Positions 1 through 24,789 of a stretch of 64,000 bases of DNA are shown piece after piece. Source of the stretch: Rathayibacter sp. VKM Ac-2857 (GTDB lineage: Bacteria; Actinomycetota; Actinomycetes; Actinomycetales; Microbacteriaceae). The position numbers were made by a program, and so were the translations under genes. Within the stretch, counting starts at the first letter, position 1. Every line of letters starts with the position of its first letter. The notes beneath the pieces are model-generated. The model worked only from the letters and a program-made list of their open reading frames with translations, did not search any database and was not told where the DNA came from. The DNA lies in contig NZ_JABMLE010000003.1 of the NCBI RefSeq assembly GCF_013205025.1, forward strand, positions 372,001 to 436,000, in the 5' to 3' direction.

Positions 1-202
1 TCATACCGAGATGCATAACGCCGAGAGCGTGCTCGAACCGGTTTCCAGTTAGCGAGGGGTAGACCACGTGACCGCAGCCGTTTTGGTGAATGCGTCGCAG
101 TCGTGCGATGAATGGCGAGTCCACGAGCTCGACAAGCTCCTGCGGCACGTAGACATAGCCGTGCACAGGATCGCGATATCGACGTCCGTATCGAACGCTC
201 AT
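1..202 (-). CDS. HD-domain phosphohydrolase, SAMHD1/dGTPase-like (partial, runs off the left edge)
   Basis: Only the first 67 codons lie in the window. The translation from the ATG at 202 carries the N-terminal signature of the SAMHD1/YdhJ type of HD phosphohydrolase: RDPVHGYVYV at residues 10-19, then FIARLRRIHQNG (31-42), and YPSLTGNRFEHALGVMHLG (48-66). The His of RFEH normally supplies the first metal ligand of the HD site; the HD pair itself would lie beyond the edge. Known relatives hydrolyse (d)NTPs to nucleosides plus triphosphate or act on other phosphoesters. The start overlaps the stop of the upstream phosphorylase-like gene (ATGA), so it is the last visible gene of a five-gene leftward operon devoted to nucleotides. 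Substrate cannot be inferred from this fragment. Confidence 0.8.
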   Translation of the reverse strand, partial: MSVRYGRRYRDPVHGYVYVPQELVELVDSPFIARLRRIHQNGCGHVVYPSLTGNRFEHALGVMHLGM

Positions 203-1671
203 CTCTTGGGCTCCGATATCTCAAAATTGTCGACCAAGTCTTGCAGGAGTTCAGCGTCGGCTTTGTGTGGCGCATACACTCGCACTAGCGGCTGACCGCG
301 TTCCACAAGTGTGCCGAGCGCGGCCCCAAGCATGATACCCCCGGCTCCAGGTGCGAGGGGGAGTCCACCAGATCCTGGTGTGTAGACGTTCAGCCGATTG
401 TTCACCATGTCAGCGAGCTCGACTGTGTCCTTCGATGTCAGGGTTCCGGTAGAAGACGCAGTAATGTCCGTGAACGGCAACCCTTGAAGGATCGCTTCGG
501 CCCCCGTGTCCCTTACTCTTGCGAGAAAGGGCGCTTCGACACCATGATCTTGCCATAGGGACAGTAGGTTTTCTTTCAGAGTCCCATCACGCCATGCGTC
601 CACGACCGTGGAATGGATGTCTTTCTCGGTCAGCGAAGGGCATTGAGCGAGATGTGAAGCGAAAGACGCCGAGAGCGCGAGTTCACTTCCTTCGGGAATT
701 GATAGGTCGGCGGGAGCGTCGAGGAGGTCGAGGACTTCACTGATCTCGGTAGCATTACCAATGCTCCGCCAAGTTACCCGCGATGTTGAGCGGACTCTGA
801 AATCAATAAACAGTGGTAGCCCGGCACACACTTTGGATGCGAGTGCGACGAATGCATCCGCTTCACCCCGTGTGTAGAAGAACGCGCCAGGGCCGTATAG
901 GACGTCGAGGAGCGTCAGATCGGTTTGCAGGGCGTACTGCTTGGCGATGATGCTAGCGACGATGAGTCCGACCTGCCGGACGGTACCGGTCTCACCTCGG
1001 AGGAAATACAGCACCTCGTCGCGAGGGCAGAAGTCGGGTCCGGCAGTGAAGTACCTCACCGCCGGGGGCTCGCCGCTCCAGCCGCTCACCGCCGCCGCGG
1101 ACATCGGGCGGAAGCCGGGAAGAATGCGAAGCTTGTCGCTCGTCCCCCCTGTGTGCCCTAATCTGCGGGCGACAAGAAAGCTTGAGTTCAGGCCGGCCCG
1201 CTCGCTCAACAACCGGAGGACCGCCGGAAGGAGGATTGCCTGCTTTTCTGAAATGCCCCCCGTTGGGTAGCGTCGGACACTCTTCGTCTTCTGCGGCCGC
1301 TTGCGAAAGAGAGGTTCGGCAAGAAACCGAGTTAGCAGCGCAACCTGCTGGGTGGAGACGCCACGCAGTCTCATCGACGTTAGCCAGTACCCTAGGGCGA
1401 CCCCCGCATCCCGCTCAGCGGATGTCGCCCACGCCTCGATGGCCGAGGCGAGTAGTTTCCAGAGGTCCGCAGACTCTGTGAACCAAGCGTCCGCAAGCAC
1501 GTCTGGACGCGACCCGCTCATGCTGCGCCAGTCTGACGCGTTCGTGGCGCGGCCAAATGCCGCATGGCAAAGAAGTGCACCGAACTGCGCCGGCGTTGGG
1601 ACGTCGCTGAACAGAATGGGATCGCCCTGGCGTTGAAAGGCGACCTCGAGCCTAAGCGCGTTAGATCGCAT
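199..1671 (-). CDS. Divergent thymidine/pyrimidine-nucleoside phosphorylase-like protein (glycosyltransferase family 3 fold)
   Basis: 490 aa from the ATG at 1671; a TTG at 1689 is an alternative that would add 6 residues. The diagnostic glycine-rich block of the DeoA family is present as LGHTGGTSDK (171-180) followed by LPGF. An upstream block RRYPTGGISEK (133-143) occupies the place of the phosphate-binding KHSTGGVGDK of thymidine phosphorylase. Further on, FLRGETGTV with Arg 225 and VASIIAK (238-244) match the base-contacting Arg/Ser/Lys stretch. So the fold and base pocket look kept, but the Lys-His-Ser of the phosphate loop reads Arg-Tyr-Pro, suggesting an altered or lost phosphorolysis reaction. 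Family enzymes convert deoxynucleosides plus phosphate to base plus deoxyribose-1-phosphate. It overlaps both neighbours in a nucleotide-processing operon, and its GC content is lower than the chromosome to the right. Confidence 0.75.
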   Translation of the reverse strand: MRSNALRLEVAFQRQGDPILFSDVPTPAQFGALLCHAAFGRATNASDWRSMSGSRPDVLADAWFTESADLWKLLASAIEAWATSAERDAGVALGYWLTSMRLRGVSTQQVALLTRFLAEPLFRKRPQKTKSVRRYPTGGISEKQAILLPAVLRLLSERAGLNSSFLVARRLGHTGGTSDKLRILPGFRPMSAAAVSGWSGEPPAVRYFTAGPDFCPRDEVLYFLRGETGTVRQVGLIVASIIAKQYALQTDLTLLDVLYGPGAFFYTRGEADAFVALASKVCAGLPLFIDFRVRSTSRVTWRSIGNATEISEVLDLLDAPADLSIPEGSELALSASFASHLAQCPSLTEKDIHSTVVDAWRDGTLKENLLSLWQDHGVEAPFLARVRDTGAEAILQGLPFTDITASSTGTLTSKDTVELADMVNNRLNVYTPGSGGLPLAPGAGGIMLGAALGTLVERGQPLVRVYAPHKADAELLQDLVDNFEISEPKR

Positions 1672-2296
1672 AGCGTTGAATACTCTCAAGGAGGAGCCGC
1701 ACGTCCTCCGCAGTCTCCTCAGGCGATCCGACCTGCTGTCGGTGGACGATGAACTCCACGCCCTTCTCGGCTGTGTAAGCGCGTGCTACGTCAGACATCA
1801 GTTCCTGCATCGCGAGATTCTCGCCAATGTCCACCCCTGCATCGAACTCTCGACCTCGCTTAGTCAGCATGGTATTCCAGGTGGGCTCGTCAACCTGTAC
1901 GAACACTAGATGGGTGGGGTCAGGCAACGACGCGTAGTCCACTTCCGCGGCGCTTTGAGCTGCGTCGAAGTAGGGGTTTTCGGGTGAGATCAGCCAGCGC
2001 ATGCTCTCGTCTGCCATATAGCGCGCGATGAGCTTGTCGTACATGCTGTCGACGACTGCGTCACCGCCGGAGGCGTGGATCTTCGCAGCTTCGAGGTAAC
2101 CGGGCACACGAGTGTTCCTAAACCACTGTAATGCAAGGTACGGCCCGAATTGGCCGTTCGCCTGTCGATCGGTGACGAGTGGACTCCATTCGGGCTCTTC
2201 CGGCTCGAGGAACGCCGAGCCGCCAAGCATCATCGCTAAAGCGTGAGCCGTCGCAGATTTTCCGCATCCGGGAACTCCCATGAATCCGATGAACAT
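1661..2296 (-). CDS. Deoxynucleoside-kinase-like P-loop NTPase
   Basis: 211 aa. Walker A is GVPGCGKS at residues 7-14. The order of later motifs follows the deoxyribonucleoside kinase family: EP at 31-32, a QWFRNTR helix (57-63) in the place of the family's FQ/R stretch, VVDSMYDK (81-88) in place of the DRS/ERS motif, and a LID-like KRGREFD (146-152) after the strand LVFVQVD. Family members phosphorylate deoxynucleosides or dNMPs with ATP. The DRS motif is altered (DSM), so catalysis and substrate need testing. Start ATG lies 4 bases after the stop of the upstream nuclease gene, and its 3' end overlaps the phosphorylase-like gene, implying translational coupling. Alternative: a more generic AAA/zeta-toxin-like kinase; the EP and LID motifs favour the nucleoside kinase reading. 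Confidence 0.65.
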   Translation of the reverse strand: MFIGFMGVPGCGKSATAHALAMMLGGSAFLEPEEPEWSPLVTDRQANGQFGPYLALQWFRNTRVPGYLEAAKIHASGGDAVVDSMYDKLIARYMADESMRWLISPENPYFDAAQSAAEVDYASLPDPTHLVFVQVDEPTWNTMLTKRGREFDAGVDIGENLAMQELMSDVARAYTAEKGVEFIVHRQQVGSPEETAEDVRLLLESIQRYAI

Positions 2297-2300
2297 GCTG

Positions 2301-3089
2301 TTAGAAGAGCGTTGGGGGTTCGACGCCCACGATTTGTTCGCCGTGGTCCGGGGTAAATTCTAGGTCTGTCTCCACGCGTACAGCTGAGTGATCTGTGACG
2401 CGCTCATCTCCAGTCCGCCATTGATGTTCCAGTTCCGTCTTGACCACGTGGGCACGAAGAGTGTGGGTGGAGAAGGCATGGTCGTATCGAAAGCCTTCGC
2501 CTTTGTATGAAGCCCAGGAGACTTGGTCAGAGTCGGCAAGCAGATCTGTGAGGGGCGTGGAGAGCATGTCAGAGTATGCTTGCCTCTCGAAGTCATACAT
2601 AGTTCTGTACTGCGGGAGGCTTCTGTCGTCGACGAAATTCAGATCCCCGATGACCAGCAAGTTGGCCGTAGCGCTCGCTTCCCGCCGCACCTGATCAGCG
2701 AACTGGCGCAACCACTTCCGCTTCTCCGCAATTTTGTCCTGTGAGTTGCGGCCGAACGGATCGGAGGAGATGCCATACGCGGCAAGGATTGACATTCGTG
2801 GCGTCGCCTCGAGCGCAACACTTTGGATGCGGCCCGCACCCGTGCGCACATATGTGGCGGGCACTTTTGTTGCGACCAGAGTTGTGAACCCGTTGAACGA
2901 AAGCTCCCAACCGTGGACGCGGAAGCCGTCCGCGCGCAGACCGTTGACCAACGCCTCACCGCCTGCCGATTTCTTGACCTCCGTCAGAACCAACACGTCG
3001 GCACCAGCGGAGATCAGCGCAAGCCGCTGACGTTCCGCGCGCTCAGCAGAGGGGGAGTTGACGTTGATGGCGAGCACCGTAAGCGTCAA
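2301..3089 (-). CDS. Exonuclease/endonuclease/phosphatase (EEP) family protein
   Basis: 262 aa when started at the TTG at 3089, which overlaps the preceding stop as TTGA and has an AGGAAGAG ribosome-binding site just upstream; a longer reading from 3179 would overlap DUF3310 completely and is rejected. The EEP fold is shown by LAINVNS near the N-terminus, the metal-binding Glu 37 in LTEVKK, GDLNF (148-152), RYDHAF (201-206) and a C-terminal TDHSAV (232-237) with the catalytic Asp-His pair. These enzymes cleave phosphodiesters in DNA, RNA or small molecules with Mg2+. No signal peptide is visible, so it is cytoplasmic. Second gene of the leftward nucleotide operon; whether it acts on DNA, RNA or a nucleotide is open. 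Confidence 0.75.
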   Translation of the reverse strand: MTLTVLAINVNSPSAERAERQRLALISAGADVLVLTEVKKSAGGEALVNGLRADGFRVHGWELSFNGFTTLVATKVPATYVRTGAGRIQSVALEATPRMSILAAYGISSDPFGRNSQDKIAEKRKWLRQFADQVRREASATANLLVIGDLNFVDDRSLPQYRTMYDFERQAYSDMLSTPLTDLLADSDQVSWASYKGEGFRYDHAFSTHTLRAHVVKTELEHQWRTGDERVTDHSAVRVETDLEFTPDHGEQIVGVEPPTLF

Positions 3090-3358
3090 GACTCTTCCTG
3101 CGAATTCACTTCCGGGCCGCCCGCTGATTCGGCTTCGGCCGCCCGCTCCAACCGCGCGATCTCCCGTTCGACGTACCATTTGGCCTTATAGAGGTCTTCA
3201 ATTTCATTCTGCTTGCCGCCAGCACGCCAGAGATACTTAATGGCGTTACCCCTGCAGAAGTTCATGCTTTCAACCACGTCGATGCACTCGATAGGTGCGT
3301 CGGCACCGCCGTAGTACGGGGGGTGGTCAACGGAGTCGGAGTATGGACGTTCACGCAT
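3086..3358 (-). CDS. DUF3310 family protein (phage-associated small protein)
   Basis: 90 aa. Typical DUF3310 blocks are visible: VDHPPYY (10-16), IECIDV (23-28), FCRGNAIKYLWRAG (34-47) and EDLYKAKWY (54-62). This family is common in tailed phages, often among DNA-replication and nucleotide genes, and its function is not established. It opens the leftward operon, and its TGA overlaps the TTG of the EEP gene. The charged C-terminal tail after residue 70 is not conserved in the family as far as I know. A GGGGGCC stretch upstream of the ATG could act as ribosome-binding site. Its presence suggests the operon was acquired from, or shaped by, phage. Confidence 0.8.
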   Translation of the reverse strand: MRERPYSDSVDHPPYYGGADAPIECIDVVESMNFCRGNAIKYLWRAGGKQNEIEDLYKAKWYVEREIARLERAAEAESAGGPEVNSQEES

Positions 3359-5343: not shown

Positions 5344-5582
5344 AGGGAATTCTCCGACACTTCCAGCATCAGCCGGCAACGTCAACGCGGTGAACGCAGT
5401 CGCCGAGCGATCGACTGATGCCCGAGGTCTCCGCCGCACCGTGTCAAGTAAGCGCTCGCAACGTCGACCCCCTGCGCGCCTCGACGCCACGCGGCGTCCG
5501 ACTACCGGTCTCGGGGGCGGCATCCGCAGTGTCGCTAGCGCTACATTTGACAGGACAGGTTTCACATTTTTGGGGGCGCACA

Positions 5583-6943
5583 GTGGCACAACGGACCGAC
5601 ATACCCGTCAGCGAACTGCTCCTAGACCGAAAAAACGCCCGCTTAGGACAAGAGCAAGAAACACAGCAAGCCACGATTCATGCTCTCGCGACGCACCAAG
5701 GGAAGCGTCTTGTGAAACTTGCCGAGAGCATCGTGTCAGACGGACTTGACCCCGCTCAGCTATTCACCGTCGTGCGCACACCAGATAAAAAACCGCGTTA
5801 TACGGTGCTTGAAGGGAATCGGCGAACTCTCGCGCTGAAGGCTCTAGAGACCCCCACGATTGTCCAAGCCGCTTTGATGCCTTCCGAGTTCAAGAAGTTG
5901 ATTTCTCTGTCCGAAAGGTTTCAGAAGGATCCTATCGATTTGGTTCACTGCGTGCTCTACGAGCCCGATGAAGAACCGATTGCAAATGACTTTGTTATGG
6001 GTCGCCATGGCGGTGCTCAGGATGGCATTGGACTCGTGGAGTGGGACTCGGACGAGAAAGATCGCTTCCGTGCCCGGCATGGTGGCGATGCGGTCCGATC
6101 CTATTCTGGACAAGTCATTGATTTTCTTGCGGAGATTGATGGACCGCCTGAATCGAAGTCTAAAATCGCCACAAACGTCCAGCGGCTCGTCAATTCGCCG
6201 AAAGTCAGGGATGCACTTGGCCTGACTGTGGTCGACAAGCAATTGATCTCAAGTATCCCACCGAGCAGATTGCTAAGGCTCTCCGTAAAATTGCGAACGA
6301 CCTTCGTAGCCAAACTGTCACCGTTCCGGACATCTACGACGACAAAAAGCGCCAAGCCTATATTGCTACTTTTGCCGAAGACGAGCTTCCGGACCCGGCG
6401 ACTGAGCTGACGGCACCAGTCAAGTTGACTGACCTGCCAAAGGGTGACGCCGCTCCGACCTTAAAAACGCCGACTACGACCAAGAGTGCTAAGTCGAAGC
6501 CTAAACCGAAACCTCAGCGAGTTGCCGTCGCCGCAAGCGAAGCCAAGATCAACCCGAGTGCTCCGCGGACCAACGATGTCTACCAAGAGCTGGTGACTAT
6601 CAACGCCGATAAGCATCCCAATGCGGCATCAGTTCTCTTTCGCGTCTTTGTCGAGTTATCAGTCGATGACTACATTGTAAGGCATAAGTTGATTTCAGAC
6701 GAAAATAATCCAAATCTTGCAAAGCGACTTAAAGATGTGAATAATCACTTGCTGTCCAATTCCGCGATTCCTAAGCAGCTGCATCTTGTAATTCAGCAAA
6801 TTGCGAACAACAAGCATGGTCTTGCGGCGAGTATGGTTACTTTTAATCAGTACGTCCACAACTCGTACTCTTTCCCCAAGCCGAGCGAGCTACGCACCTC
6901 CTGGGACGAAATGCAGCCCTTCCTGGAAGCCGTCTGGAAGTGA
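5583..6943 (+). pseudogene. ParB/sulfiredoxin-fold protein with C-terminal helical domain, interrupted by a frameshift near 6245
   Basis: From the GTG at 5583 (AQRTDIPVSELLLD) the first frame shows a ParB-type N-domain: IPVSELLLD, then VLEGNRRTLALKAL with the GNRR box. It stays protein-like to LTVVDKQLIS near 6250. The continuation (LKYPTEQIAKALRKIANDLR) lies in another frame and runs to 6943, ending QYVHNSYSFPKPSELRTSWD...FLEAVWK, a helical C-terminal domain. Rejoined, the protein is about 453 aa. No slippery heptamer is obvious, so this is a real inactivating indel or a base error. The 3' end overlaps the methyltransferase start as GTGA, so the two form one transcription unit. ParB-fold nucleases/NTPases beside DNA methylases often belong to restriction or defence loci. 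A TTGACA lies at 5547-5552, but a convincing -10 is not seen. Confidence 0.65.
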
Positions 6944-7842
6944 ATCAACTTTCTCGTTTTCCCTCGCCGTTGCGTTACCCGGGCGGCAAGGGGAAAATTG
7001 CGAACTACGTCAAGTTGCTCATGATTGAAAACAATTTAGCGGGCAACGACTATGTGGAGCCCTACGCTGGTGGCGCTTCCGTCGCTCTCTCCTTGCTCTA
7101 CGAGGGCTACGCCGATCGCGCTTTCATCAACGATCTAAATCCAGGCGTGCACGCGTTTTGGAAAAGCGCTGTATCGCAAACAGAGGAGCTTTGCGCACTC
7201 ATCGACAGCACTCCTGTGACCATGTCCACTTGGTATGAGCAACGCGCAATTGCAGCCTCAGCAGCGGCCGAGGGGCTTGAGTTGGGGTTCGCCACCTTTT
7301 TCCTCAATCGCACTAACCGATCTGGCATAATTAGTGGCGGCGTTATTGGCGGGTTGGACCAGACGGGTCAATGGAAAATTGATGCTCGATATAATAAAGA
7401 GTCGCTAATCCAGCGCATCCGAAAAATTGGCCGTCATCGGAGTAGTATCATAGTTTCTAACGAGGATGCGGTGCAATACGTTCAGCGGTGGAGCGATCCA
7501 GCCGAAGATGCGGCATTCCTCTACCTGGATCCTCCGTACTTTGAAAAAGGGGAGGGTCTCTACGATAATTTCTACGATGCCGCTGACCATGCGATGATTG
7601 CCGATGCAGTCGACTCTCTTGCGCATCCGTGGATTGTGTCCTACGATGCGCGCCCCGAAATCACTCGTTTATACCCTCACGCCATTCAGATCCGATATGG
7701 ATTAGCGTATTCGGCAAACCAGGAGCGGCCTATGGGTTCTGAGATCATGTTTTTCTCGAAAGATCTCACTATTCCCAACCGGCTCCCTAGTGGCATTTCC
7801 TCGGCGCAGGTCGCGCAGGCGCAACGCCAAGCACGCGCTTGA
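6940..7842 (+). CDS. D12-class N6-adenine DNA methyltransferase (Dam-like)
   Basis: 300 aa, GTG start overlapping the preceding stop. Motif X-like LRYPGGKGK is at residues 11-19, the SAM-binding EPYAGGAS at 40-47, the D12-class NRTNRSG at 123-129, and the catalytic DPPY at 197-200 preceded by FLYL. These enzymes transfer a methyl group from S-adenosylmethionine to adenine N6 in a short DNA motif. The lower GC and the position in the island mark it as acquired. It lacks a recognisable restriction endonuclease partner; the coupled ParB-like gene is the only candidate partner. It may protect host DNA in a restriction or phage-defence module, or be an orphan phage-type methylase. Confidence 0.88.
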   Translation: MNQLSRFPSPLRYPGGKGKIANYVKLLMIENNLAGNDYVEPYAGGASVALSLLYEGYADRAFINDLNPGVHAFWKSAVSQTEELCALIDSTPVTMSTWYEQRAIAASAAAEGLELGFATFFLNRTNRSGIISGGVIGGLDQTGQWKIDARYNKESLIQRIRKIGRHRSSIIVSNEDAVQYVQRWSDPAEDAAFLYLDPPYFEKGEGLYDNFYDAADHAMIADAVDSLAHPWIVSYDARPEITRLYPHAIQIRYGLAYSANQERPMGSEIMFFSKDLTIPNRLPSGISSAQVAQAQRQARA

Positions 7843-8035: not shown

Positions 8036-8857
8036 TTACTGGGGACGTCGCGCGAGTAGTGCGGGAACCGGTGAGTTGCCGTCAAGCCATGTCGCGAGTG
8101 GAGCGTCTAGCATGCGGGCGAGCATGCGTATTTGCTCGTGGCCGGCCTCCGTCGTCATTCGATTTTGTTGGCCTTTCAGTGGGAAGCCGTTGAGAATCGG
8201 CTCGTGATGCGCAACCCGATTCCGCAACTCGTTCACGGTCTTGCAGACGCCGTGGATCCAGTTGCGATTGAATGCGACTTCCTGTCGCATTCTAATGACC
8301 TCCTTCTGCTGGGAAGGGCCTGGAGGGATTGCCTGGATCAAGGCATTGCGTTGTGTTCGGGCCTCGATCCTTCCACCTGGAAATGCGGAACGGAACGCTT
8401 GGTCCCAGAGCTTGTCGTAATCAGCAGAAACCCGTCGTGGAGGCCTGCCGATGTGTCCTCCCGCGTCAAGGAGGTTTGTCCAGAATCCGAACATGCACTG
8501 AGCGACGACGCGGCCGGGAACGTCTACGTCCTGAGCGCGTTTCTTGACCGACTCGTGCAGGAATTGCCAGGCGCTAGCGAGCTGGCCGCTGCTGCGCTCG
8601 TCGAGCAGAACCGACGGGTCCGCGTACCAGTGCGGACCCCAAGCCCTAGTAGCGGCGTCGTGCATAGCGTTGCGCAGGGCAACCTCGAGGATCGCGATGT
8701 CACCGAGGATCGCAACCGAAACATCGCGGTTCCACACGTACAGTTCTCGCGCCAGTTCCGCATCACCGCTGGCTGCTGCGAGGAACGTCTGGAACCGAGG
8801 TCCCGAGATGCCGCGTTGCAGGTCTGAGTGAGGGCCAGCTGCTGGTTGTCCTGCCAT
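8036..8857 (-). CDS. Abi family (abortive-infection, HEPN-like) protein
   Basis: 273 aa from the ATG at 8857 (a GTG two codons upstream at 8863 is also possible). The N-terminal RFQTFLAAASGDAELAREL...YVWN and ILEVALRNAMHD follow the pattern of actinobacterial Abi-like proteins. Near the C-terminus LRNRVAHHEPIL contains an R-x4-H motif (residues 212-217), the signature of HEPN ribonuclease active sites. By family knowledge such proteins can degrade RNA and arrest growth on phage infection. It is monocistronic, convergent with the methyltransferase operon, and sits at the right end of the island. No antitoxin gene is next to it. Confidence 0.75.
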   Translation of the reverse strand: MAGQPAAGPHSDLQRGISGPRFQTFLAAASGDAELARELYVWNRDVSVAILGDIAILEVALRNAMHDAATRAWGPHWYADPSVLLDERSSGQLASAWQFLHESVKKRAQDVDVPGRVVAQCMFGFWTNLLDAGGHIGRPPRRVSADYDKLWDQAFRSAFPGGRIEARTQRNALIQAIPPGPSQQKEVIRMRQEVAFNRNWIHGVCKTVNELRNRVAHHEPILNGFPLKGQQNRMTTEAGHEQIRMLARMLDAPLATWLDGNSPVPALLARRPQ

Positions 8858-8888
8858 GGTCACGCGGTGTAGGCTACATGCCAGAAGT

Positions 8889-12321: not shown

Positions 12322-12912
12322 ATGGGCAGGAGGCGTGCGGCGGTCGTGGGCGTCGTGCTGCTCGGGTTGCTGACCGGCTGCGCGACGGGGCCGACGGCGG
12401 GCGTCGACGAGCAGATCCTCGCGGCGGAGGAGCTCGGCGACAGCGCGGTGGATGCCGCGGAGTCGTTGCATCCGGTGCTGATCGGTGCGGACCTCCGGGT
12501 GTCGGTGCGCGGCGGCAAGCCCTCGGTGAGCCGCGAGGACGAGCGCTGGGTCGAGCTGTTCCTCCGCCTGGTGCCGCAGGGGGCGGGACCCGGAGCGAGC
12601 GGGGAGGTGCAGGAGGCGATCGAGCGCGAGCTGCTCGACGACGGCTGGGTCGCGGACGAGCTGACGCGGGACGCCGCGGAGACCGGCGAGGGCGCCGAGT
12701 TGTGGTTCACCCGGCCGGGCGCCGAGGGCACCGCGACCTGGGACGGCGACTCCCCGGGCGACTGGCACGTCTCCGTCTGGGGCCGCCTCGACTACGTGCA
12801 GCTCGACGTCCAGAGCCCGTTCGCCCTGACGACGGACACCCAGTACGTGACCACCGACGCCGTCGAGGCCCGCCACCCGGAGTGGCGCAGCCCGGACGGC
12901 GTCCTGCCGTGA
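12322..12912 (+). CDS. Lipoprotein, hypothetical
   Basis: 196 aa. The N-terminus MGRRRAAVVGVVLLGLLTGC is a classic lipoprotein signal with lipobox LTGC. The mature part is acidic and ends in a segment with WGRLDYVQLDVQSPFALTTD. It is divergent from the secreted-protein/MFS unit across a 125-bp gap that must hold both promoters. No domain recognised. A repeat-rich stretch follows directly after its stop. Confidence 0.75.
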   Translation: MGRRRAAVVGVVLLGLLTGCATGPTAGVDEQILAAEELGDSAVDAAESLHPVLIGADLRVSVRGGKPSVSREDERWVELFLRLVPQGAGPGASGEVQEAIERELLDDGWVADELTRDAAETGEGAELWFTRPGAEGTATWDGDSPGDWHVSVWGRLDYVQLDVQSPFALTTDTQYVTTDAVEARHPEWRSPDGVLP

Positions 12913-12943
12913 GTTCCGGTCGAGTAGCCCGCCTCGCCGTCTC

Positions 12944-13055
12944 CTGCTGATCGAGTAGCCCGCCGCGCGGGCGTATCGAGCGGAGCGGGGAAGAGTCCGA
13001 CGTTCATGCGGTGGTGGGTCTCGATACGCCCCTGCGGGGCTACTCGACCAGCATG
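12944..13055. repeat. REPIN-like pair, short-spacer type (unit pair 1)
   Basis: Two inverted palindromic units (GATCGAGTAGCCCGC... and ...GGGCTACTCGACCAGCATG) flank a spacer containing GAAGAG..CCGACGTTCATGCGGTGGTG. The same spacer motif recurs beside units at 15884 and 57382. Confidence 0.75.
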
Positions 13056-13100
13056 TCTGCGGGCGTCTCTTCCAAGGAGATCCCCCGTTCTGCCGGAGGT

Positions 13101-13141
13101 GTGGTCTCGATACGCCCCTGCGGGGCTACTCGACCAGCATG
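13101..13141. repeat. Single REP-like palindromic unit
   Basis: GTGGTCTCGATACGCCCCTG with its complement-side CTACTCGACCAGCATG. It is preceded by a 45-bp segment (from 13056) that recurs after the unit at 13768-13809. Confidence 0.75.
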
Positions 13142-13182
13142 GGGCGGGGCGCTGCGGACAGCATGGAGTGCGGTCGTCGTTC

Positions 13183-13312
13183 CATGCTGATCGAGTAGCC
13201 CGCGTCGCGGGCGTATCGAGATCCACCAGCGTCAGAAGTCGAGTCCGCAGACGCGCCCTGCTGATGACGACGGGTCTCGATGCGCCCCCTGCGGGGCTAC
13301 TCGACCACCATG
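13183..13312. repeat. REPIN-like element, 130 bp
   Basis: Starts CATGCTGATCGAGTAGCCCG and ends CTACTCGACCACCATG, two palindromic units in inverted orientation around a spacer with GAGTCCGCAGAC. Its length and layout match 18881-19010, 28641-28771 and 32109-32239. Confidence 0.8.
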
Positions 13313-13366
13313 TTGCGGCGCAACCGCGTCCTTCCCCCGTCACCGAGACGCGAAGCGGCTTCGCCG

Positions 13367-13403
13367 CTCGATACGACCCTGCGGGGCTACTCGACCAGCA
13401 AGG
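13367..13403. repeat. Single REP-like unit
   Basis: CTCGATACGACCCTGCGGGG followed by CTACTCGACCAGCA, directly before the end of a small leftward gene. Confidence 0.65.
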
Positions 13404-13411
13404 AGAGGGCG

Positions 13412-13645
13412 TCAGCTCGCTCGGCGCGTGGCTCTCGAGCGGAGCTCCTCACTCGGCCCACCGGACTCCTCGCCCCGAGGGACGGCCGCGTTGCCGCCCG
13501 CACGCGGACCGACGATGTACCGACCCGTCACCGCATCCTGCACGACGGAGCGCCCCGACCGCCGCAGGTTCCTCGCGGCCTTCTCCGCGAGCTCTCGCGC
13601 GAGGCGTTGCGATTGCTCGCTGTAGCCACTCACTTCCGCCACCAC
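13412..13645 (-). CDS. Small hypothetical protein
   Basis: 77 aa, beginning MVAEVSGYSEQSQRLAREL, basic and helical at first, then SVVQDAVTGRYIVGPRAGGN, which looks like a genuine folded segment. It overlaps the end of the remnant at 13630-13752, as paired small genes do. No family recognised. Its 3' end abuts a REP unit. Confidence 0.5.
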   Translation of the reverse strand: MVAEVSGYSEQSQRLARELAEKAARNLRRSGRSVVQDAVTGRYIVGPRAGGNAAVPRGEESGGPSEELRSRATRRAS

Positions 13646-13752
13646 CTCTGCTCGGGCGCCATCGCTTCGTTGATCACGTTGAAGACGTCGATCGCAGAAT
13701 GATTGTCCTCGACTCTCGCCCGTGACGCGTAGGCGAGAGTCGCGAGAGCGAC
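13630..13752 (-). pseudogene. 5'-truncated small gene fragment upstream of the hypothetical at 13412
   Basis: The reading frame ends SAIDVFNVINEAMAPEQRWW plus RK and looks coding, but it has no plausible start before it runs into the REP unit at 13768-13809. It may have been truncated by repeat insertion. With the overlapping downstream ORF it could be the relic of a two-gene (toxin-antitoxin-like) unit; that is inference only. Confidence 0.35.
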
Positions 13753-13767
13753 AGATGTCTCTGCGGG

Positions 13768-13809
13768 TGTGGTCTCGATATGCCCCTTCGGGGCTACTCG
13801 ACCAGCATG
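13768..13809. repeat. Single REP-like unit with conserved 45-bp flank
   Basis: GTGGTCTCGATATGCCCCTT and its complement arm CTACTCGACCAGCATG. The 45 bp after it (CTGCGGGCGACTCTTCCAAG...) are a near copy of 13056-13100. Confidence 0.75.
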
Positions 13810-13861
13810 TTCTGCGGGCGACTCTTCCAAGGAGATCCGCCGTTCTCCGGCGGTCCGGCCG

Positions 13862-14146
13862 TCAGGTCAGGCGCTCCGTCAGGTGGACGGCGACCTCGTC
13901 GCCGAGGTCCTTGCGGAGCTTCGTGCGGAGCTTGGCGCTGATGGAGAGCATGTGGCCGCCGGCGCCCGTGGGCATCAGGCCCGCGGTGAGCGGCTCGCCG
14001 TCGACGGTCGCGACGACCTTCACGGATTTGCCGGTGCCGAACAGCGCGACGGAGTCGGGCACCTCCACGCACGACCAGAGGTCGCCCCTCACGGTGACGC
14101 CGATCGGCGCGGTGAAGGCCACGTCGATCGGGCCGACGCCGTTCAT
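13862..14146 (-). CDS. DUF1905 domain-containing protein
   Basis: 94 aa. The sequence AFTAPIGVTVRGDLWSCVEV, the run GTGKSVKVVATVDGEPLTAG, and GAGGHMLSISAKLRTKLRKD followed by GDEVAVHL are the three segments of DUF1905, a small beta-barrel family of unknown function often fused to a YdeI/OmdA-type domain. That second domain is absent here. Monocistronic. Confidence 0.75.
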   Translation of the reverse strand: MNGVGPIDVAFTAPIGVTVRGDLWSCVEVPDSVALFGTGKSVKVVATVDGEPLTAGLMPTGAGGHMLSISAKLRTKLRKDLGDEVAVHLTERLT

Positions 14147-14542
14147 GCCGCGGCCTTCGCTGATCGGCTCCGAAGTTCGGCTGCGCAGGTCTCGTCGTGG
14201 TCGGGCACGTCGTCCTCCAGGTCTCGTCGGTGCGGTAACCCAACCACAGGACGCGTCAGCGCGTCAGCCGGCCGATCCGCTCCGCCGGGAGCGGGCGGTC
14301 GGCGTCGGTCGTCACGGTGAGGCTCGGCTCCGCGCCGTCGCGCTGGTCGGCCCCGTCCATCGGGCGAGCCTCTCTCGGGCGAGGGGGAGCGGCGTCGGAA
14401 CACGCTGGCCGAGCAGCCCGAAGGGCGTCTCGAGACCCGACCGCGAGCACAGGGCTCCTCCACACGCCGACTTCAGGCCCCGATCGTCCCGCCGGAGTAG
14501 CTCGCCGACCCCGGTGTCGGTGGTCCCTGATTCAATACTCGT
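14147..14542. other. Intergenic stretch without a supported gene
   Basis: A diverged REP unit (CTGGCCGAGCAGCCCGAAGG, about 14405-14437) is the only recognisable element. A 34-codon leftward reading (DGAEPSLTVTTDADRPLPAE) near 14256-14360 looks protein-like but is too short to call. Confidence 0.4.
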
Positions 14543-15847
14543 ATGACGGACAACGGATCGGACGGCGCGGTACCCGCCGGCGTGCGCGGGCGAGGCGACC
14601 GCGCGGCCGCGTTCGCGCGTGCCGCCGCGCCGCTGCGCCTGGCCGAGGCGGAAGAGCTGTACGCCGGCCACCTCGAGGCCCTCGCCGACTCGGACGCGTA
14701 CGCCCGGGGGGCGACCCGCAGCGAGACCCGCGATCTCGTCGAGCGCTCGATCCGTGCCGAGTTCGCGGTCGCGGAGGGCCTGCCCGAGCAGGTGATCTCC
14801 CGGCGCCTCGAGACAGCGCAGCTGCTGATGGAGCACCTGCCGCTCACGCGGGCGCTGCTCGCGCAGGCGCGTCTGCACTGGGAGGAAGGAGAGGCGATCT
14901 GCGCCACCGCCAGCAGCCTTCCCGAAGCCTCCCGCGCCGCACTCGACGAGTACGCCGCCGAGGCGGCGCCGACGATGACGCTCACGCAGCTGCGCCGGGC
15001 CCTGCGCCGCTGGAGGGAGGAGCTGCACGAGCAGCCGCTCGCCGAGCGGTACGCGCGTGCCCGGGAGGATCGCGCGGTCTGGGTCACCCCGGATGTGGAC
15101 GGGATGGCGACGCTCAGCCTCCACGCTCCCGCACCGTCAGTGACGGGTGCGTACGACCGGCTGCGGCGCATCGCCCGCGCCCTCCGGGACGACGGCGACC
15201 CGCGCACTCTGCAGCAGCTGAGCGCCGACGCGGCGGTCGACCTGCTCTGCGACGGCGACATCCTCGGCACCACTCCCGACGCCGAGGACCGCCCCGACCC
15301 GACCTTCGTCCCCGGTGTCCGCGCCGAGGTGCGGCTGACGCTCGCCGCGTCCACCGCCGTCGGTCTCGACGACGCTCCCGGGGAGCTCGACGGCTACGGG
15401 CCCGTCCCCGCGGTCATCGCTCGCGAGCTGATCCGGACCGCCGCCTCGTTCACGCGAGTGCTCACCGATCCGGACACCGGCGCCGTCGTCTCCGTCGGGC
15501 GGACGTGGCGCGTCCCGCCGTCGCAGATGCGCCTGCACCTGCAGCTGAGGGATCAGACCTGCCGGTTCGCGGGCTGCACCCGTCCCGCCAGCACCAGTGA
15601 GGCCGATCACACGGTCGAGTGGCGCAACGGAGGGGAGACGTCGCTCGAGAACCTCGTGTCGCTCTGCACCAGTCACCACCACCTCCGGCACGGCGACCGG
15701 TGGACGTACGCGAAGGGCGACGGCGGCGAGATCGTGTGGACGACGCCGACCGGACGGCGCGTCAGCAACCGGCCGCCGCCACTGCCAGGGCGGCCGCCGG
15801 ACCCACTGCCGGGGCCGCACTTCGACGATGCACCCGCGCCGTTCTGA
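14543..15847 (+). CDS. DUF222 / HNH endonuclease family protein (13E12-repeat type)
   Basis: 434 aa. A helical DUF222 region fills the first 300 residues, followed near the C-terminus by an HNH nuclease motif: CRFAGCTRPASTSEADHTVE (zinc Cys, catalytic His) and SLCTSHHHLRHGDRW. Such proteins occur in many copies in actinobacteria; a role in mobile-intron-like or defence nuclease activity is often proposed but not proven. A proline-rich tail ends the protein. A REP unit lies 37 bp after its stop. Confidence 0.88.
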   Translation: MTDNGSDGAVPAGVRGRGDRAAAFARAAAPLRLAEAEELYAGHLEALADSDAYARGATRSETRDLVERSIRAEFAVAEGLPEQVISRRLETAQLLMEHLPLTRALLAQARLHWEEGEAICATASSLPEASRAALDEYAAEAAPTMTLTQLRRALRRWREELHEQPLAERYARAREDRAVWVTPDVDGMATLSLHAPAPSVTGAYDRLRRIARALRDDGDPRTLQQLSADAAVDLLCDGDILGTTPDAEDRPDPTFVPGVRAEVRLTLAASTAVGLDDAPGELDGYGPVPAVIARELIRTAASFTRVLTDPDTGAVVSVGRTWRVPPSQMRLHLQLRDQTCRFAGCTRPASTSEADHTVEWRNGGETSLENLVSLCTSHHHLRHGDRWTYAKGDGGEIVWTTPTGRRVSNRPPPLPGRPPDPLPGPHFDDAPAPF

Positions 15848-15883
15848 CGGAGGGCGCGTTTACTGGGAAGAGACGCTCGCACA

Positions 15884-15928
15884 CATGCTGGTCGAGTAGC
15901 CCCGAAGGGGCGTATCGAGACCCACCAC
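15884..15928. repeat. REP-like unit (half of the short-spacer pair)
   Basis: CATGCTGGTCGAGTAGCCCC to CGTATCGAGACCCACC, followed by CACCGCATGAACGTCGGCCT, the same spacer motif (inverted) as at 12985-13015. The preceding 35 bp resemble the 45-bp flank seen at 13056 in reverse. Confidence 0.75.
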
Positions 15929-15962
15929 CGCATGAACGTCGGCCTCTTCCCCGCCCTGCCGA

Positions 15963-16400
15963 TCAGCGCCGGCTGCTGCCTGCTCTCCATGGCTCCCTGC
16001 GCCGGGCCGCTCGCCCTTCGCGCCGGCTGAGCGCGGGGGCGGCCTCCGCTCGCTCGCGCGCCTCGTCTTCGCGGCGGCTCAGCCAGCCGGGTCCGTCCCG
16101 GCGCAGCTGCTCGGCGTCGGGGCTCGGCGTGCGGGGTGCCGCGCGCCGCCGCCGCGCGAGACCGATCTGCTTCACGACGCCGACCACGACTCCGGTGCCG
16201 AAGAACGGCAGCCCGACGCCCGCCACCAGCCAGAGCGGGGCGTGCCGGCGGCCGCCGCCGACGACCGCGGTCGGATCCCAGTCGACGTCCGAGCCGAGGA
16301 CGACGATCATCGCCACGAACGCCGCGCTGAGCACGGCCAGCGTCCACGGCCGGGAGAGGAGGAACGCCTGCGCGCGCTCCGACACCCTCCGCCTCGCCAT
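15963..16400 (-). CDS. Small membrane protein, hypothetical
   Basis: 145 aa with two transmembrane helices (TLAVLSAAFVAMIVVLG and APLWLVAGVGLPFFGTGVVV) and a long, highly basic and acidic cytoplasmic tail of about 70 residues. No domain recognised. The ATG at 16400 gives a basic N-terminus before helix 1, which fits the positive-inside rule. Confidence 0.6.
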   Translation of the reverse strand: MARRRVSERAQAFLLSRPWTLAVLSAAFVAMIVVLGSDVDWDPTAVVGGGRRHAPLWLVAGVGLPFFGTGVVVGVVKQIGLARRRRAAPRTPSPDAEQLRRDGPGWLSRREDEARERAEAAPALSRREGRAARRREPWRAGSSRR

Positions 16401-16796
16401 TCCGCGAGCCTAGGCGCCGGGCGGATCGGCCGCGACGCCGGAGAGCCGGTCCCCTGGACACGATCGCGGCCGTGCGGGAGGCTGGGGGCGATCGCGAGAC
16501 CCGGCCCCCGTCTCCTTCGACTCTCGAGCGCACGCGCGCACGCGCCGCTCGAGGGGTGGAATCAGCCCTCCGGTCTCGACGCCCGCCACGAACCGGACGC
16601 GTCGCCCGATTCCACGGGGGTGGGGTCGGGCCCGGCCTCGCCCCCCTCCTCCCGGCCCGGAGGCCCTCCTCCCGGGCGGACGCGGTAAAATCGTCGCTCA
16701 CTTCCCTGCTCGGGTCGGCCGCCCGCCGGGCGCAGCCGTCCGGCAGGCCCGCGGGCCGGGTTCGGCTCGCCGGCGGGAGAGTGCAGGGGAGGCCGG
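16401..16796. other. Intergenic stretch, no gene seen
   Basis: 396 bp of very GC-rich DNA between the membrane protein gene and the first AraC gene. Both promoters (divergent) should lie here; no convincing operator was recognised. Confidence 0.4.
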
Positions 16797-17795
16797 ATGG
16801 CGCAGCGTCGCGAGTCCGAGCCGACACCAGTGGCCGCTCCCGTGCCCGCGCCCGCCGACCAGGGCGGCATCCGCATCGAGGCCGTCGGCGATGACGTCGA
16901 GCAGGCGCCCGTCGTCCTCGGCGGCTTCTACGCGGGGACCGACTGGACGGTGACCCCGTCGGACGCCCCGTTCTCGTTCCGCTACGCCGCTCTCGGCGAC
17001 GCCGCGATGACCCTGCGGACCTCGCAGATGCGCGGCACCAACTCCGGCGACATCCCCGTCGGCGAAGACTACATCGTGCAGTGGCTCGTCGCAGGCAGCT
17101 CGACGATCGACCTCCAGCGCGACGCGATCCCGCAGCGGCGCGGCGTCCCCCTGCTGTTCCCCGCCTATCGCTCGTTCGAGTTCACCTTCACCGACTACGA
17201 CCAGAAGCTCGTGCACCTGGGCCGCGACCACGTCGACCGGATCGCCCGCGAGCGGGGCCTGCGCGGACCGCTCCGCTTCGACCACCTCCGCCCGGTCGAC
17301 ACAGCGGCCGCGGACCGCTGGCACGCCGCGATCACGGAGATCTCGACGGCGGTCCGCTCCGGGCGCGTGACACCGCTGCTCTGGGACCGGCTCTCCCGCC
17401 GGGGGGCCGCGGCGTTCCTCGAGCTGTACCCGCCGGAGGCCGCGGTGCTGCCCGAGGTGCTGCTCGCCCCGCGGAACGCGAGCGTGCGCACTGCCGCGGA
17501 GTTCGTCCAGGAGAACGCGCACCTCGCGCTCGGTCCGCTCGAGATCGCGGCCGCAGCGCGCCTCAGCGTGCGCGGTCTGCAGGTCGCCTTCCAGCGGGTC
17601 CTCGGCACGACGCCGCTGCAGTACCTCCGCGACGTGCGCCTCGACCGCGCGCGCACCGACCTGCTGCTCGCCGACCCCGCCCGCAGCACCGTCGCCGACA
17701 TCGCCCGCGACTGGGGCTTCACCCACCTCGGCCGCTTCTCCGGCGCCTACGCCGCCCGTTTCGGCGAGTATCCGAGCCGCACGCTGCAGCGCTGA
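16797..17795 (+). CDS. AraC family transcriptional regulator (first of tandem pair)
   Basis: 332 aa, ATG preceded by GGGGAGG. The C-terminal 100 residues carry the two helix-turn-helix motifs of AraC/XylS: LGPLEIAAAARLSVRGLQVA with FQRVLGTTPLQYLRDVRLDR, then TVADIARDWGFTHLGRFSGA with YAARFGEYPS. The N-terminal part is an effector or dimerisation domain without a named family in my reading. About 80 bp downstream lies a paralogue of the same architecture, indicating duplication. No target gene is adjacent. Confidence 0.88.
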   Translation: MAQRRESEPTPVAAPVPAPADQGGIRIEAVGDDVEQAPVVLGGFYAGTDWTVTPSDAPFSFRYAALGDAAMTLRTSQMRGTNSGDIPVGEDYIVQWLVAGSSTIDLQRDAIPQRRGVPLLFPAYRSFEFTFTDYDQKLVHLGRDHVDRIARERGLRGPLRFDHLRPVDTAAADRWHAAITEISTAVRSGRVTPLLWDRLSRRGAAAFLELYPPEAAVLPEVLLAPRNASVRTAAEFVQENAHLALGPLEIAAAARLSVRGLQVAFQRVLGTTPLQYLRDVRLDRARTDLLLADPARSTVADIARDWGFTHLGRFSGAYAARFGEYPSRTLQR

Positions 17796-17861
17796 CGGCC
17801 CGACTGTCCACGAAACGCACTGGCGGCGAGCGGCGCCGACCGGAGTGGAAAACTGACCCCG

Positions 17862-18815
17862 ATGAACGAGGACCACGCGCGCGTGCGGCGCTCCGAGGTG
17901 AGCGGCACCGACTTCGACCAGGCGCGCACGCTGCTGCAGGGCGAGTACAACGGCGCCGGATTCACCGTCGAGCCGACGGTGCCGAGCTTCTCCTACCGCT
18001 ACTCCTCCGTCGGCGACGACGAGCTGACCCTGCGCGGGAGCCTCTTCGCCGGCTCGGTCCACGGCTCGATCCTGACCGAGGGCGAGTACATCGTCTCCTG
18101 GCTCACCGCCGGCTCCGGCGCGACCGACCTCGGCCGCGACGCGGTCGTCCTGGCGCACGGGCAGCCGGCCGTGCTGGTGAACAACCGGCCCGCGGAGTTC
18201 GACTTCACCGACTACCGCCAGAACCTGATGCACTTCGACGGCGCCTTCCTCGAGCGCGTCGCCGCCGAGCACGAGGGCGCCACCGGCCCGCTCCTCTTCG
18301 ACACCCGCGCTCGCCCCACCGGCGAGGCCCTGCGGAAGTGGGGAGCGACCGTCGCGACCGTCGCCCGCGTCGTCTACAGCACCGACAGCCCGGAGCTGCT
18401 GCGCCGCGAGGCGAACCGCACCGCCGCGATCGCGCTGCTGGACACCTTCCCCCACGTCGCTCTCGCCGTCCCCGCCGAGCTCTCGCTCCCGTCGACCGCC
18501 AGGCTCCGCGCCGCCATCGAGTACCTGCACGCCCACGCCCACGAGCCCGTCCCCGTCGAGGACGTCGCCGCGGCCGCGGGTCTGAGCCTGCGCGGCCTGC
18601 AGGCCCTCTTCCGCCGCGAGCTGGAGCTCAGCCCGCTCGACTACCTGCGCCGCATCCGCCTCGACCGCGTCCGGGAGGAGCTCCGGGCCGGCCAGGCGGG
18701 AGCCCTCTCCGTCGCGGAGGTCGCGCACCGGTGGGGCTTCGCGCACCTGGGCCGCTTCTCCGCGTCCTACGCGCGCCGCTTCGGCGAGTACCCGCGGGCG
18801 ACGCTGCACGACTGA
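17862..18815 (+). CDS. AraC family transcriptional regulator (second of tandem pair)
   Basis: 317 aa, same layout as the gene before it: N-terminal domain with SFSYRYSSVGDDELTLRGSL and EYIVSWLTAGSG (compare DYIVQWLVAGSS upstream), C-terminal HTH motifs VPVEDVAAAAGLSLRGLQAL and SVAEVAHRWGFAHLGRFSAS ending RRFGEYPRATL. The shared N-terminal features show a tandem duplication followed by divergence. The two could form heterodimers or answer related ligands. A REPIN-like element follows the stop. Confidence 0.88.
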   Translation: MNEDHARVRRSEVSGTDFDQARTLLQGEYNGAGFTVEPTVPSFSYRYSSVGDDELTLRGSLFAGSVHGSILTEGEYIVSWLTAGSGATDLGRDAVVLAHGQPAVLVNNRPAEFDFTDYRQNLMHFDGAFLERVAAEHEGATGPLLFDTRARPTGEALRKWGATVATVARVVYSTDSPELLRREANRTAAIALLDTFPHVALAVPAELSLPSTARLRAAIEYLHAHAHEPVPVEDVAAAAGLSLRGLQALFRRELELSPLDYLRRIRLDRVREELRAGQAGALSVAEVAHRWGFAHLGRFSASYARRFGEYPRATLHD

Positions 18816-18880
18816 GGCGACGTGCTCTGCTGATGACGGCGGGGTCTCTAGGAAAGATCACCTCTGCGCAGGAGGAAAGC

Positions 18881-19010
18881 CATGCTGATCGAGTAGCCCG
18901 CGGAGCGGGCGTATCGAGATCCACCGTCGTCGGAAGACGAGTCTGCAGACCTGGTCTTGCTGGTGACGGCGGGTCTCGATACGCCCCTGCGGGGCTACTC
19001 GACCAGCATG
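18881..19010. repeat. REPIN-like element, 130 bp, with an extra partial copy to 19045
   Basis: CATGCTGATCGAGTAGCCCG at one end, CTACTCGACCAGCATG at the other, spacer with AGTCTGCAGACC. Directly after it, GGTACGCCCCTGCGGGCTAC with GGACCAGCATGG is a degraded tandem copy of the right-hand unit. Confidence 0.8.
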
Positions 19011-19081
19011 GGTACGCCCCTGCGGGCTACTGGACCAGCATGGAGCGGTGCCGCCGCTCGCAGCCGACGAGTCACGGCTGA

Positions 19082-20230
19082 TCAGGGCGTGGCGCTCTCG
19101 TCCGCCGGCCGCAGCGCCCAGGCGGTCACCGCCACCTCCGCGCCCGCCACGATGTCGGTCTGCACCGGCCAGGAGCCGCGCACGCCACCGGGGATCTGCG
19201 CGCAGTAGAGGGTGGTCGCGACGAGGGCGCCCGGGGTGGCTCCGGCGTCCCAGCCGAGGCGCGTGACCGCGGTGCCGCCGGCCGGGATCTCGACGCGCAC
19301 GGGGCCGGCGTCCTCGGTCATGAACGAGCCTCCGCGGACGAGGTCGACGTCGAGGGCGTTGCCGTTCTGGTCGGCGAAGGCCAGGTCGGGGTAGCCCTCG
19401 ATCACGCACGGCGCCTCGGAGAAGTTGAGCAGCTCGATCGTGAGCATCCGGTGCCCGGTGGCCGCGTCCGTGCCGCTGAACAGGGGCGTGGCGACGTCCG
19501 GTGTGCAGGCGTCCGCGGCGAGCGGGCCCTCGGCGGGGGCGCTGGTCGGCGGAGGCGTGCCCTCCGCGTACGGATCGGGGAGTGCCCCGGAGTCCTCGTC
19601 GTAGCCGTTCGCGATCGCGTCCGCGGCGACGGCGCTGCGGTCGGCCTCGCGCTGCCCGACGACGCCCGCCACGACGAGGGCGGTCACCGCGAGCACGGAG
19701 ACACCCGCCAGCAGGACGGGCCGGAGGCGCGTCGGCCTCGCGGAGTCCCGGCCCGCGCGACGGCTCAGCAGCACGACCATCAGGGCGGGCAGCCAGCCCT
19801 GCACGAGTCCCCAGTAGGCGCCGACCGCGGCCTGCGCGCCCAGCCCCGAGAACAGCATCCGGAGCCGCATCGGCGGGAGCGCCCCCGCGACGGCCGCCGC
19901 GTCCTGCGCGAGGCCCGCGACTCCTCCCGCGACCACGGCGGCGAACCAGACGGTGACGAAGGCGGCCCGCCCCGATCCGCCGGCGAGCCGGCTCACCAGC
20001 AGGTGCACGACGGCGACGACGACCGCGCCGATCACCCCGACGAGCAGCGACCAGGGCAGCGGCCGAGCCCAGACGTAGCCGGGGATCGTGAGCGGCAGGA
20101 CCGCCTCCTGGCCGCCGATCGTGAGCCCGTTCCACTGCACCGCCGCCGCGATCGCCCCGGTGCCGAGCCAGAGCACGGCGGCCGTCAGCGCGGCCGGCCC
20201 CGCGTCCGTGCCGGTCCTCGTGTGCGCCAT
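19082..20230 (-). CDS. Membrane protein with C-terminal DUF4232 domain
   Basis: 382 aa. About five hydrophobic helices occupy residues 15-200, then a linker, then a secreted-side DUF4232 domain: LTIELLNFSEAPCVIEGYPD, LAFADQNGNALDVDLVRGGS, and VRVEIPAGGTAVTRLGWDAG. Two Cys (CVIEG and LYCAQ) could form a disulfide. DUF4232 is an Ig-like extracytoplasmic domain of actinobacteria with unknown function. Monocistronic. Confidence 0.78.
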   Translation of the reverse strand: MAHTRTGTDAGPAALTAAVLWLGTGAIAAAVQWNGLTIGGQEAVLPLTIPGYVWARPLPWSLLVGVIGAVVVAVVHLLVSRLAGGSGRAAFVTVWFAAVVAGGVAGLAQDAAAVAGALPPMRLRMLFSGLGAQAAVGAYWGLVQGWLPALMVVLLSRRAGRDSARPTRLRPVLLAGVSVLAVTALVVAGVVGQREADRSAVAADAIANGYDEDSGALPDPYAEGTPPPTSAPAEGPLAADACTPDVATPLFSGTDAATGHRMLTIELLNFSEAPCVIEGYPDLAFADQNGNALDVDLVRGGSFMTEDAGPVRVEIPAGGTAVTRLGWDAGATPGALVATTLYCAQIPGGVRGSWPVQTDIVAGAEVAVTAWALRPADESATP

Positions 20231-21029: not shown

Positions 21030-21074
21030 GCCCGAACAGTAGCGCCGCGCCGCCCTGAGCGGGGAGCGATCAGG

Positions 21075-21830: not shown

Positions 21831-21859
21831 GGTCGTGCGTGGTGCGCGGTAGGTCCGGG

Positions 21860-24765: not shown

Positions 24766-24789
24766 GACCAGGGGGAGCAGCAGAACCTG

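Follow-up and report, generated by a model that had tools for sequence, protein, structure and literature searches.

A horizontally acquired operon of nucleotide-processing families in a Rathayibacter defence island as a possible nucleotide-antimetabolite module

The stretch of DNA analysed here (64,000 nucleotides of Rathayibacter sp. VKM Ac-2857, G000:C3:372001-436000, further called the window; the source genome comprises 4.6 Mb in 8 contigs) carries at its left end a real and compact operon of acquired origin, whose genes share one theme, nucleotide processing. Read on the minus strand from position 3358 leftwards, it consists of genes for a DUF3310 protein, an EEP-family phosphodiesterase, a P-loop kinase-like protein, a thymidine-phosphorylase-like protein and an HD-domain (SAMHD1-like) protein, followed by an open reading frame (ORF) of 88 amino acids (aa) (Table 1). 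Tentatively, and with less than even confidence, we read this set as a horizontally acquired nucleotide-antimetabolite module, probably serving in defence: parallels with other operons would favour nucleotide-analogue chemistry over simple depletion of nucleotides, and anti-phage use is likely because the genes lie in a defence island.

An earlier, sequence-only reading had placed five ORFs at this position and strand, and all five are intact; extension of the contig to the left, which it had proposed, recovered the full HD gene together with the sixth ORF, for whose product no Pfam match was obtained. None of the six ORFs has an internal stop, and third-position guanine plus cytosine (G+C) content exceeds that of the second position in each. 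The packing of the genes back to back thus stands, while the overlaps of 4 to 30 base pairs (bp) given for it do not hold throughout: DUF3310 and EEP genes overlap by 94 bp if the latter uses its ATG start—the EEP translation start likely lies further downstream than this ATG—and EEP and kinase-like genes are separated by a 4-bp gap. As for the families named at that time, DUF3310, EEP, HD and phosphorylase-like assignments survive, whereas the deoxynucleoside-kinase type is supported by no family model. A scan for promoters of -10/-35 type upstream of the operon found none. The G+C content of the five genes from DUF3310 to HD ranges from 0.575 to 0.60 versus 0.70 in L002:1-14000 (the locus extending to the left) and 0.715 in window positions 20000-64000, and because it is so far under that of the flanking chromosome the operon is considered foreign. 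None of the searches made, whether in the genus, order, class or phylum, in plasmids or viruses or at EEP loci, revealed the set a second time, and viral-contig scans with the kinase-like, phosphorylase-like or HD protein singly were unproductive. In the co-occurrence check that had been suggested for the five families, homologues were by and large not found together within these searches, the operon being seen once. The lack of a second copy is what chance assembly of separately acquired salvage or accessory genes, devoid of any joint function, would lead one to expect; tight packing, coupled starts, similar G+C of the five genes and the single functional theme speak against such an origin, which we hold to be quite improbable.

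The thymidine-phosphorylase-like protein departs from its family in a definite place. Its score with TIGR02644, 113.5 bits, is far short of the curated cut-off of 409. Comparison with human and bacterial enzymes shows that the base-binding residues R231, S246 and K250 are kept—we take them to correspond to Arg171, Ser186 and Lys190 of the E. coli enzyme—and so is the HTGGT loop. The phosphate ligands, in E. coli Lys84, Ser86, Ser95, Ser113 and Thr123, are replaced by R140, P142, A151 and V173, with T183 alone retained, so that four of the five ligands are altered, the change of Lys to Arg being conservative. At the level of motifs, D-K-H-S ahead of TGG became R-R-Y-P, while alanine stands in place of the serine in human K-V-S and valine in place of that in I-S-G-R. 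Since most of the phosphate site is changed, we take this to mean that the chemistry of the protein is probably altered; possibly it is a dead sensor instead. Phosphorylase matches as such are common, being present in 220 of 249 genomes of the family (E up to 1e-10) with the best non-self score of 80 bits over ~190 residues, and the 19 of these that were aligned display ordinary active-site motifs. Among 396 genomes of the phylum five further matches pass E 1e-26; the best of them (G775), the only one of the five viewed, appeared by eye to be an ordinary phosphorylase encoded within a row of chromosomal genes. The plasmid and phage matches listed fall below 40% identity and cover half of the protein at the most; many carry the annotation of an ordinary thymidine or pyrimidine-nucleoside phosphorylase. 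The 8 viral loci recovered by a scan with the phosphorylase alignment lack the other operon genes.

In the HD protein, the motifs RFEH, LLHDVGH and DTDRLDY align as the SAMHD1-type H...HD...D signature, and comparison of the sequence with solved structures gives 2.5e-26 for the HD-domain chain 2o6i and ~1e-12 for SAMHD1 chains. These properties fit an explanation by plain depletion of deoxynucleoside triphosphates (dNTPs) in phage defence, according to which the HD protein, upon infection, strips dNTPs down to deoxynucleosides, the phosphorylase-like protein breaks these deoxynucleosides, thereby preventing salvage, and EEP degrades DNA. The defence-type neighbours would suit it as well, and a precedent is given by CloA of Clover, an HD dGTPase defending against phage (PMC12265719). 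Nevertheless, a salvage-type kinase encoded in the same operon would counteract depletion, the phosphate site necessary for phosphorolysis is largely gone and the PADLOC dGTPase model gave no match to the HD protein at E up to 0.1, so that we consider depletion somewhat unlikely.

Searches in 297 genomes of the order at E up to 1e-4 and in 396 of the phylum at E up to 1e-3 detected the kinase-like protein solely in the window's own genome, which is also the single one among 15 of the genus to have it; plasmid records contain no match (E up to 0.01). Within the defence library it matches VakA best, though weakly (6e-4), a name which we take to stand for viperin-associated kinase; a thymidylate-kinase PHROG is matched at 0.017 over 36 residues, and there is no NCBIfam match. 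Compared with the make-up of an antimetabolite cluster—maker, kinase and triphosphate hydrolase—the operon possesses the HD hydrolase, its kinase hits are weak, and the role of maker is one that we infer for the phosphorylase-like protein. Activities of HD, phosphorylase and EEP type are known clearance steps for nucleoside analogues, which counts in favour of detoxification of, or resistance to, a foreign analogue, with its triphosphate removed by HD, the nucleoside by the phosphorylase-like protein and the incorporated residue by EEP. The precedent is thmC, a nucleoside triphosphatase gene that alone gives resistance, as reported in PMC12691670. A kinase, however, would activate such an analogue rather than clear it, and the location amid phage-defence genes is not in line with this purpose either; we regard detoxification as decidedly unlikely.

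The parallels that speak for the antimetabolite reading come mainly from relatives of the EEP protein, in which N39, E67, D179, N181, D263 and H264 are invariant in six sequences (that of the operon and five relatives). Scanning 84,980 species genomes with the EEP alignment yielded 131 pattern matches; relatives are encoded by 71 of them, each locus comprising the match and flanks of up to 6 kb. A TMK-like gene is present in 26 of these loci (two weak), a radical-SAM gene in 23 and a MazG-like gene in 29, while 20 of the 71 combine all four genes in the order radical SAM, TMK-like, EEP, MazG-like. Aldo/keto reductase occurs in 20 loci and another radical-SAM-type gene, B12-dependent in our reading, in 19; the context of EEP loci outside both operon types was inspected by eye. 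Short motifs reminiscent of sliding-clamp peptides occur at the termini of many of these EEPs. C-terminal LF is found in 31 of 69 complete EEPs (mean 0.28 and maximum 4 in 2000 shuffles of the last 40 residues), and 25 of these 31 loci have a TMK-like or MazG-like gene; the N-terminal motif Q-x-x-L-(F/L/I), represented by QLSLF, QASLF etc., is found in 13 of 71 (shuffles: mean 0.035, maximum 2), with the second radical-SAM type or aldo/keto reductase in 10 of the 13 loci. The two are mutually exclusive, no EEP having both. The patterns were defined after inspecting the sequences, the shuffles ignore relatedness and the N-terminal pattern was applied to up to 46 codons ahead of the match, possibly preceding the true start; because EEP sequences are related, the counts are not independent. 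The N-terminal motifs fit what we take to be the sliding-clamp binding consensus, QL[SD]LF. In Crossiella, an exonuclease-like ORF (named by eye) that is divergent from EEP ends with QLGLF.

Representatives of the operon radical SAM/TMK-like/EEP/MazG-like, mostly from Streptomyces, are L025:10281-13205, L026 and L030 together with 20 of the loci L040-L110, and the combination of radical SAM, TMK-like and EEP is encountered also in Runella (L072) and in a metagenome-assembled genome of Solirubrobacteraceae (L055). No literature description of this operon was found. In L025, Pfam confirms radical SAM and thymidylate kinase, and for the protein annotated in the record as MazG-like it gives PRA-PH alone, below the cut-off; the radical-SAM protein matches pVip models at 1e-15, which may be generic radical-SAM similarity.

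Another set of parallels emerged from the HD protein. At E up to 1e-22 it has one relative (G1101, 39%) in the 296 class genomes searched, with other operon genes not nearby, and of four HD-bearing plasmid loci inspected at the outset three contained no related gene set. On a Sinorhizobium megaplasmid, the gene for a protein related to the operon HD (26% over 302 aa) is preceded by those for an annotated radical-SAM protein, an RNase T-type 3'-5' exonuclease and an AAA_28-type P-loop protein, with CD-NTase and ThiF genes near. Plasmid records with a match to this annotated radical-SAM protein number 37, and 8 loci of the module, the first found through HD, were viewed (L114:3623-7410 and L206-L211; a related gene resides also in Nostoc, L212). 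Exonuclease and P-loop protein follow radical SAM in 7 of 8 loci, that of Nostoc being without annotated exonuclease; HD comes next in three and aldo/keto reductase in three of the eight, the former count becoming 2/7 without the first locus, because it was through HD that this one was found. CD-NTase, dGTPase or TIR genes are nearby in 2/8 loci: the Agrobacterium one adjoins genes annotated as anti-phage dGTPase and TIR. One Streptomyces locus of the module additionally carries thymidylate synthase and nucleoside-diphosphate kinase genes. The exonuclease tails are partly clamp-like (AQESFL, AQGSLL etc. in 5/7; LW ending in 2/7). Two separate operon types have surfaced, one with radical SAM, TMK-like, EEP and MazG-like genes and the other with radical SAM, exonuclease, P-loop protein and HD or aldo-keto reductase; both were seen on plasmids, and neither is confined to a single phylum.

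DUF3310 is the sole phage-typical member of the operon, which does not look like a phage slice. The assertion that this family belongs to phages proved right: matches occur in 451 phage records at identity under 60%, and identity with proteins of viral contigs reaches 66% over ~60 residues. Its predicted structure is a small helical model, for which a fold search in PDB gave no informative match. In Clavibacter phage CMP1 (L178:3282-4417) the DUF3310 gene overlaps the end of a ThyX-type thymidylate synthase gene, and ThyX relatives are close to DUF3310 in 7 of 54 viral loci. For the HD protein, distant matches exist in PHROG 35128 (1.9e-24) and 11 phage records; ordinary phosphorylases are present in 21 phage records, and 3 IMG/VR contigs encode EEP relatives, in one case as the radical-SAM/TMK-like operon. 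All these may be brought together in the idea that the operon is a remnant of a prophage that modified its own DNA bases by remodelling the nucleotide pool. Against it, a set of 50,697 phage records has zero matches to EEP (E up to 1e-3) and zero to the kinase-like protein (E up to 0.01), which is missing from IMG/VR too; the 54 viral DUF3310 loci contain no matches to other operon genes at E up to 0.01; no structural or replication genes of phages were recognised leftward among ORFs inspected by eye, no family search having been made there; and the insert harbouring the operon is bounded by flanks shared with a sister genome. The origin from a prophage appears very improbable indeed, and on these searches the cluster does not resemble the piece of an ordinary phage genome that the sequence-only reading had envisaged as an alternative.

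This insert, ~14.6 kb long and private to the genome, occupies joined coordinates 12,571-27,221 (window ~-5,429 to 9,221) in comparison with the sister genome G924, which holds a different insert of ~15.3 kb at the same place between long flanks that are 93-96% identical. Pieces of a flanking ABC-transporter gene are repeated in both genomes (L002:12132-12571 and 14134-14240; L204:5558-5975), and their position at the insert edge suggests repeated integration at one spot; one right-flank piece is repeated in G924, and because flank pieces are repeated the exact edges of the insert are uncertain. The left side is common to the sister genome except for gene remnants, which short ORFs in L002:15041-15733 resemble, one being reminiscent, as we take it, of a DUF1016-type nuclease. 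To the right of the operon lie a PD-Lambda-5_A homologue split into two ORFs, which belongs to the island and not to the operon, an apparently intact PD-Lambda-5_B methyltransferase gene and a PD-T4-5/AbiD-like gene. With such neighbours the surroundings are indeed mobile and defence-like, and the earlier designation of a defence island is fair.

Table 1. Genes of the operon and its neighbours. Positions are those of the window unless locus L002 is indicated.
Feature	Position	Strand	Evidence or remark
DUF3310 protein, 90 aa, operon gene 1	3086..3358	-	PF11753, E 5.4e-12, above Pfam cut-off
EEP-family phosphodiesterase, up to 292 aa, C-terminus PPTLF	2301..3179	-	PF03372, E 5e-9, above Pfam cut-off
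P-loop kinase-like protein, 211 aa	1661..2296	-	sub-threshold P-loop-type matches
Thymidine-phosphorylase-like protein	199..1671 (ATG, 490 aa) or 199..1689 (TTG, 496 aa)	-	TIGR02644, 1e-32
HD-domain (SAMHD1-like) gene, 5' part in window	1..202	-	PF01966, E 5e-5, barely above cut-off
Complete HD gene, 574 aa, continues left of window	L002:16478-18202	-	
Sixth gene, 88-aa ORF	L002:16208-16474		start 3 bp past HD stop, AAGGAG ahead
PD-Lambda-5_A homologue, split in two ORFs	5418-6410 and 6425-6943 (5418..6943)	+	pieces searched separately, same model: 8.9e-97 and 5.2e-66
PD-Lambda-5_B methyltransferase, neighbour, apparently intact	6940..7842	+	2.5e-115
Abi_2/PD-T4-5-like (AbiD-like) protein, neighbour	8036..8863	-	PF07751, 1.2e-6; PD-T4-5, 3.8e-10

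If the operon is a nucleotide-antimetabolite module, its phosphorylase-like enzyme would make or remodel a pyrimidine deoxynucleoside via a reaction other than ordinary phosphorolysis, and the kinase-like protein would phosphorylate the product. HD, perhaps together with DUF3310, would hydrolyse the triphosphate, canonical or altered, setting the dose and securing self-protection, and EEP, possibly clamp-docked via its PPTLF tail, would excise wrongly incorporated residues from 3' ends. Its most specific version would be a defence module of a new type, whose poison, a pyrimidine nucleotide incorporated by phage, is made by a phosphorylase-fold enzyme having its phosphate site rebuilt, with clamp-docked EEP and HD protecting the host; it would be a counterpart, devoid of radical SAM, of viperin-like systems and part of a wider unrecognised group of operons of maker, kinase, 3'-exciser and hydrolase. 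In this full form the proposal is unlikely to be correct. Were it to hold, bacteria would build nucleotide poisons beyond radical-SAM chemistry and protect themselves by excision at the replication fork. The EEP lineage with terminal clamp-like motifs offers a handle for finding such operons. A number of observations weigh against the antimetabolite reading. The set is a singleton in what was searched, there is no radical-SAM or other clear maker in the operon, and no relative with the same phosphate-site changes of the phosphorylase-like protein was found. The logic shared with other modules is reduced to one homologous gene (EEP) and one distant (HD), the rest being functional likeness: the 71 EEP loci gave no tblastn match (E up to 1e-3) to the operon kinase, phosphorylase, HD or DUF3310; hhalign probability is 0.1% for DUF3310 versus MazG-like neighbours of EEP relatives and 74% for the kinase versus their TMK-like ones, which hmmsearch does not separate from shuffles; and profile comparison does not reliably link the kinase with P-loop proteins of the plasmid module, whose annotated radical-SAM protein reaches E 0.17 with the Pfam family. 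Finally, the PPTLF tail is without the glutamine of the clamp consensus, for which reason docking on DnaN is hypothetical; five Actinophytocola EEP loci likewise end without this residue.

In agreement with the initial impression, the searches made revealed no system already described that has this set, and in the literature no paper describing it was found judging by title and abstract, with subscription journals thinly covered. Several known or newly noticed systems are comparable in part. The anti-phage dGTPase and Clover (CloA/CloB) resemble the operon in having an HD nucleotide hydrolase in a defence setting, while the operon has further enzymes and no recognised CloB-like nucleotidyltransferase (absent in library scans of five operon proteins, the sixth scanned by Pfam alone). 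Radical-SAM enzyme, the hallmark of prokaryotic viperin, was likewise absent among operon proteins in family scans. The oxetanocin A cluster (oxsA HD, oxsB B12-radical SAM) is alike by described function, since an HD phosphohydrolase works there in a nucleoside-analogue cluster and, as related in PMC7074753, is needed for the product, whereas the operon has no B12-radical SAM. Modules on rhizobial and Labrenzia plasmids share an HD of the same superfamily, a P-loop protein, a 3'-end-acting nuclease and partly defence surroundings, and differ by another nuclease fold, another maker enzyme and no phosphorylase-like gene. The Streptomyces-type operons have the homologous EEP (~30% identity, mostly with C-terminal LF) beside a P-loop kinase and a small protein, in contrast possessing radical SAM where the operon has phosphorylase-like and HD genes, and a MazG-like protein for which profile comparison gave no link to DUF3310. 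Likeness to thmABC of Photorhabdus, again by described function, consists in a nucleoside-type kinase (thmB) and a nucleoside triphosphatase encoded in a compact operon dealing with a thymidine analogue, 4'-thiothymidine (PMC12691670), but the maker there is a radical-SAM enzyme (thmA), and phosphorylase-like, EEP and DUF3310 genes are in our operon alone. With thymidine and pyrimidine-nucleoside phosphorylases, at last, the operon protein shares the overall family and the base-binding residues, whereas its phosphate ligands are mostly replaced and its score remains far below the curated level.

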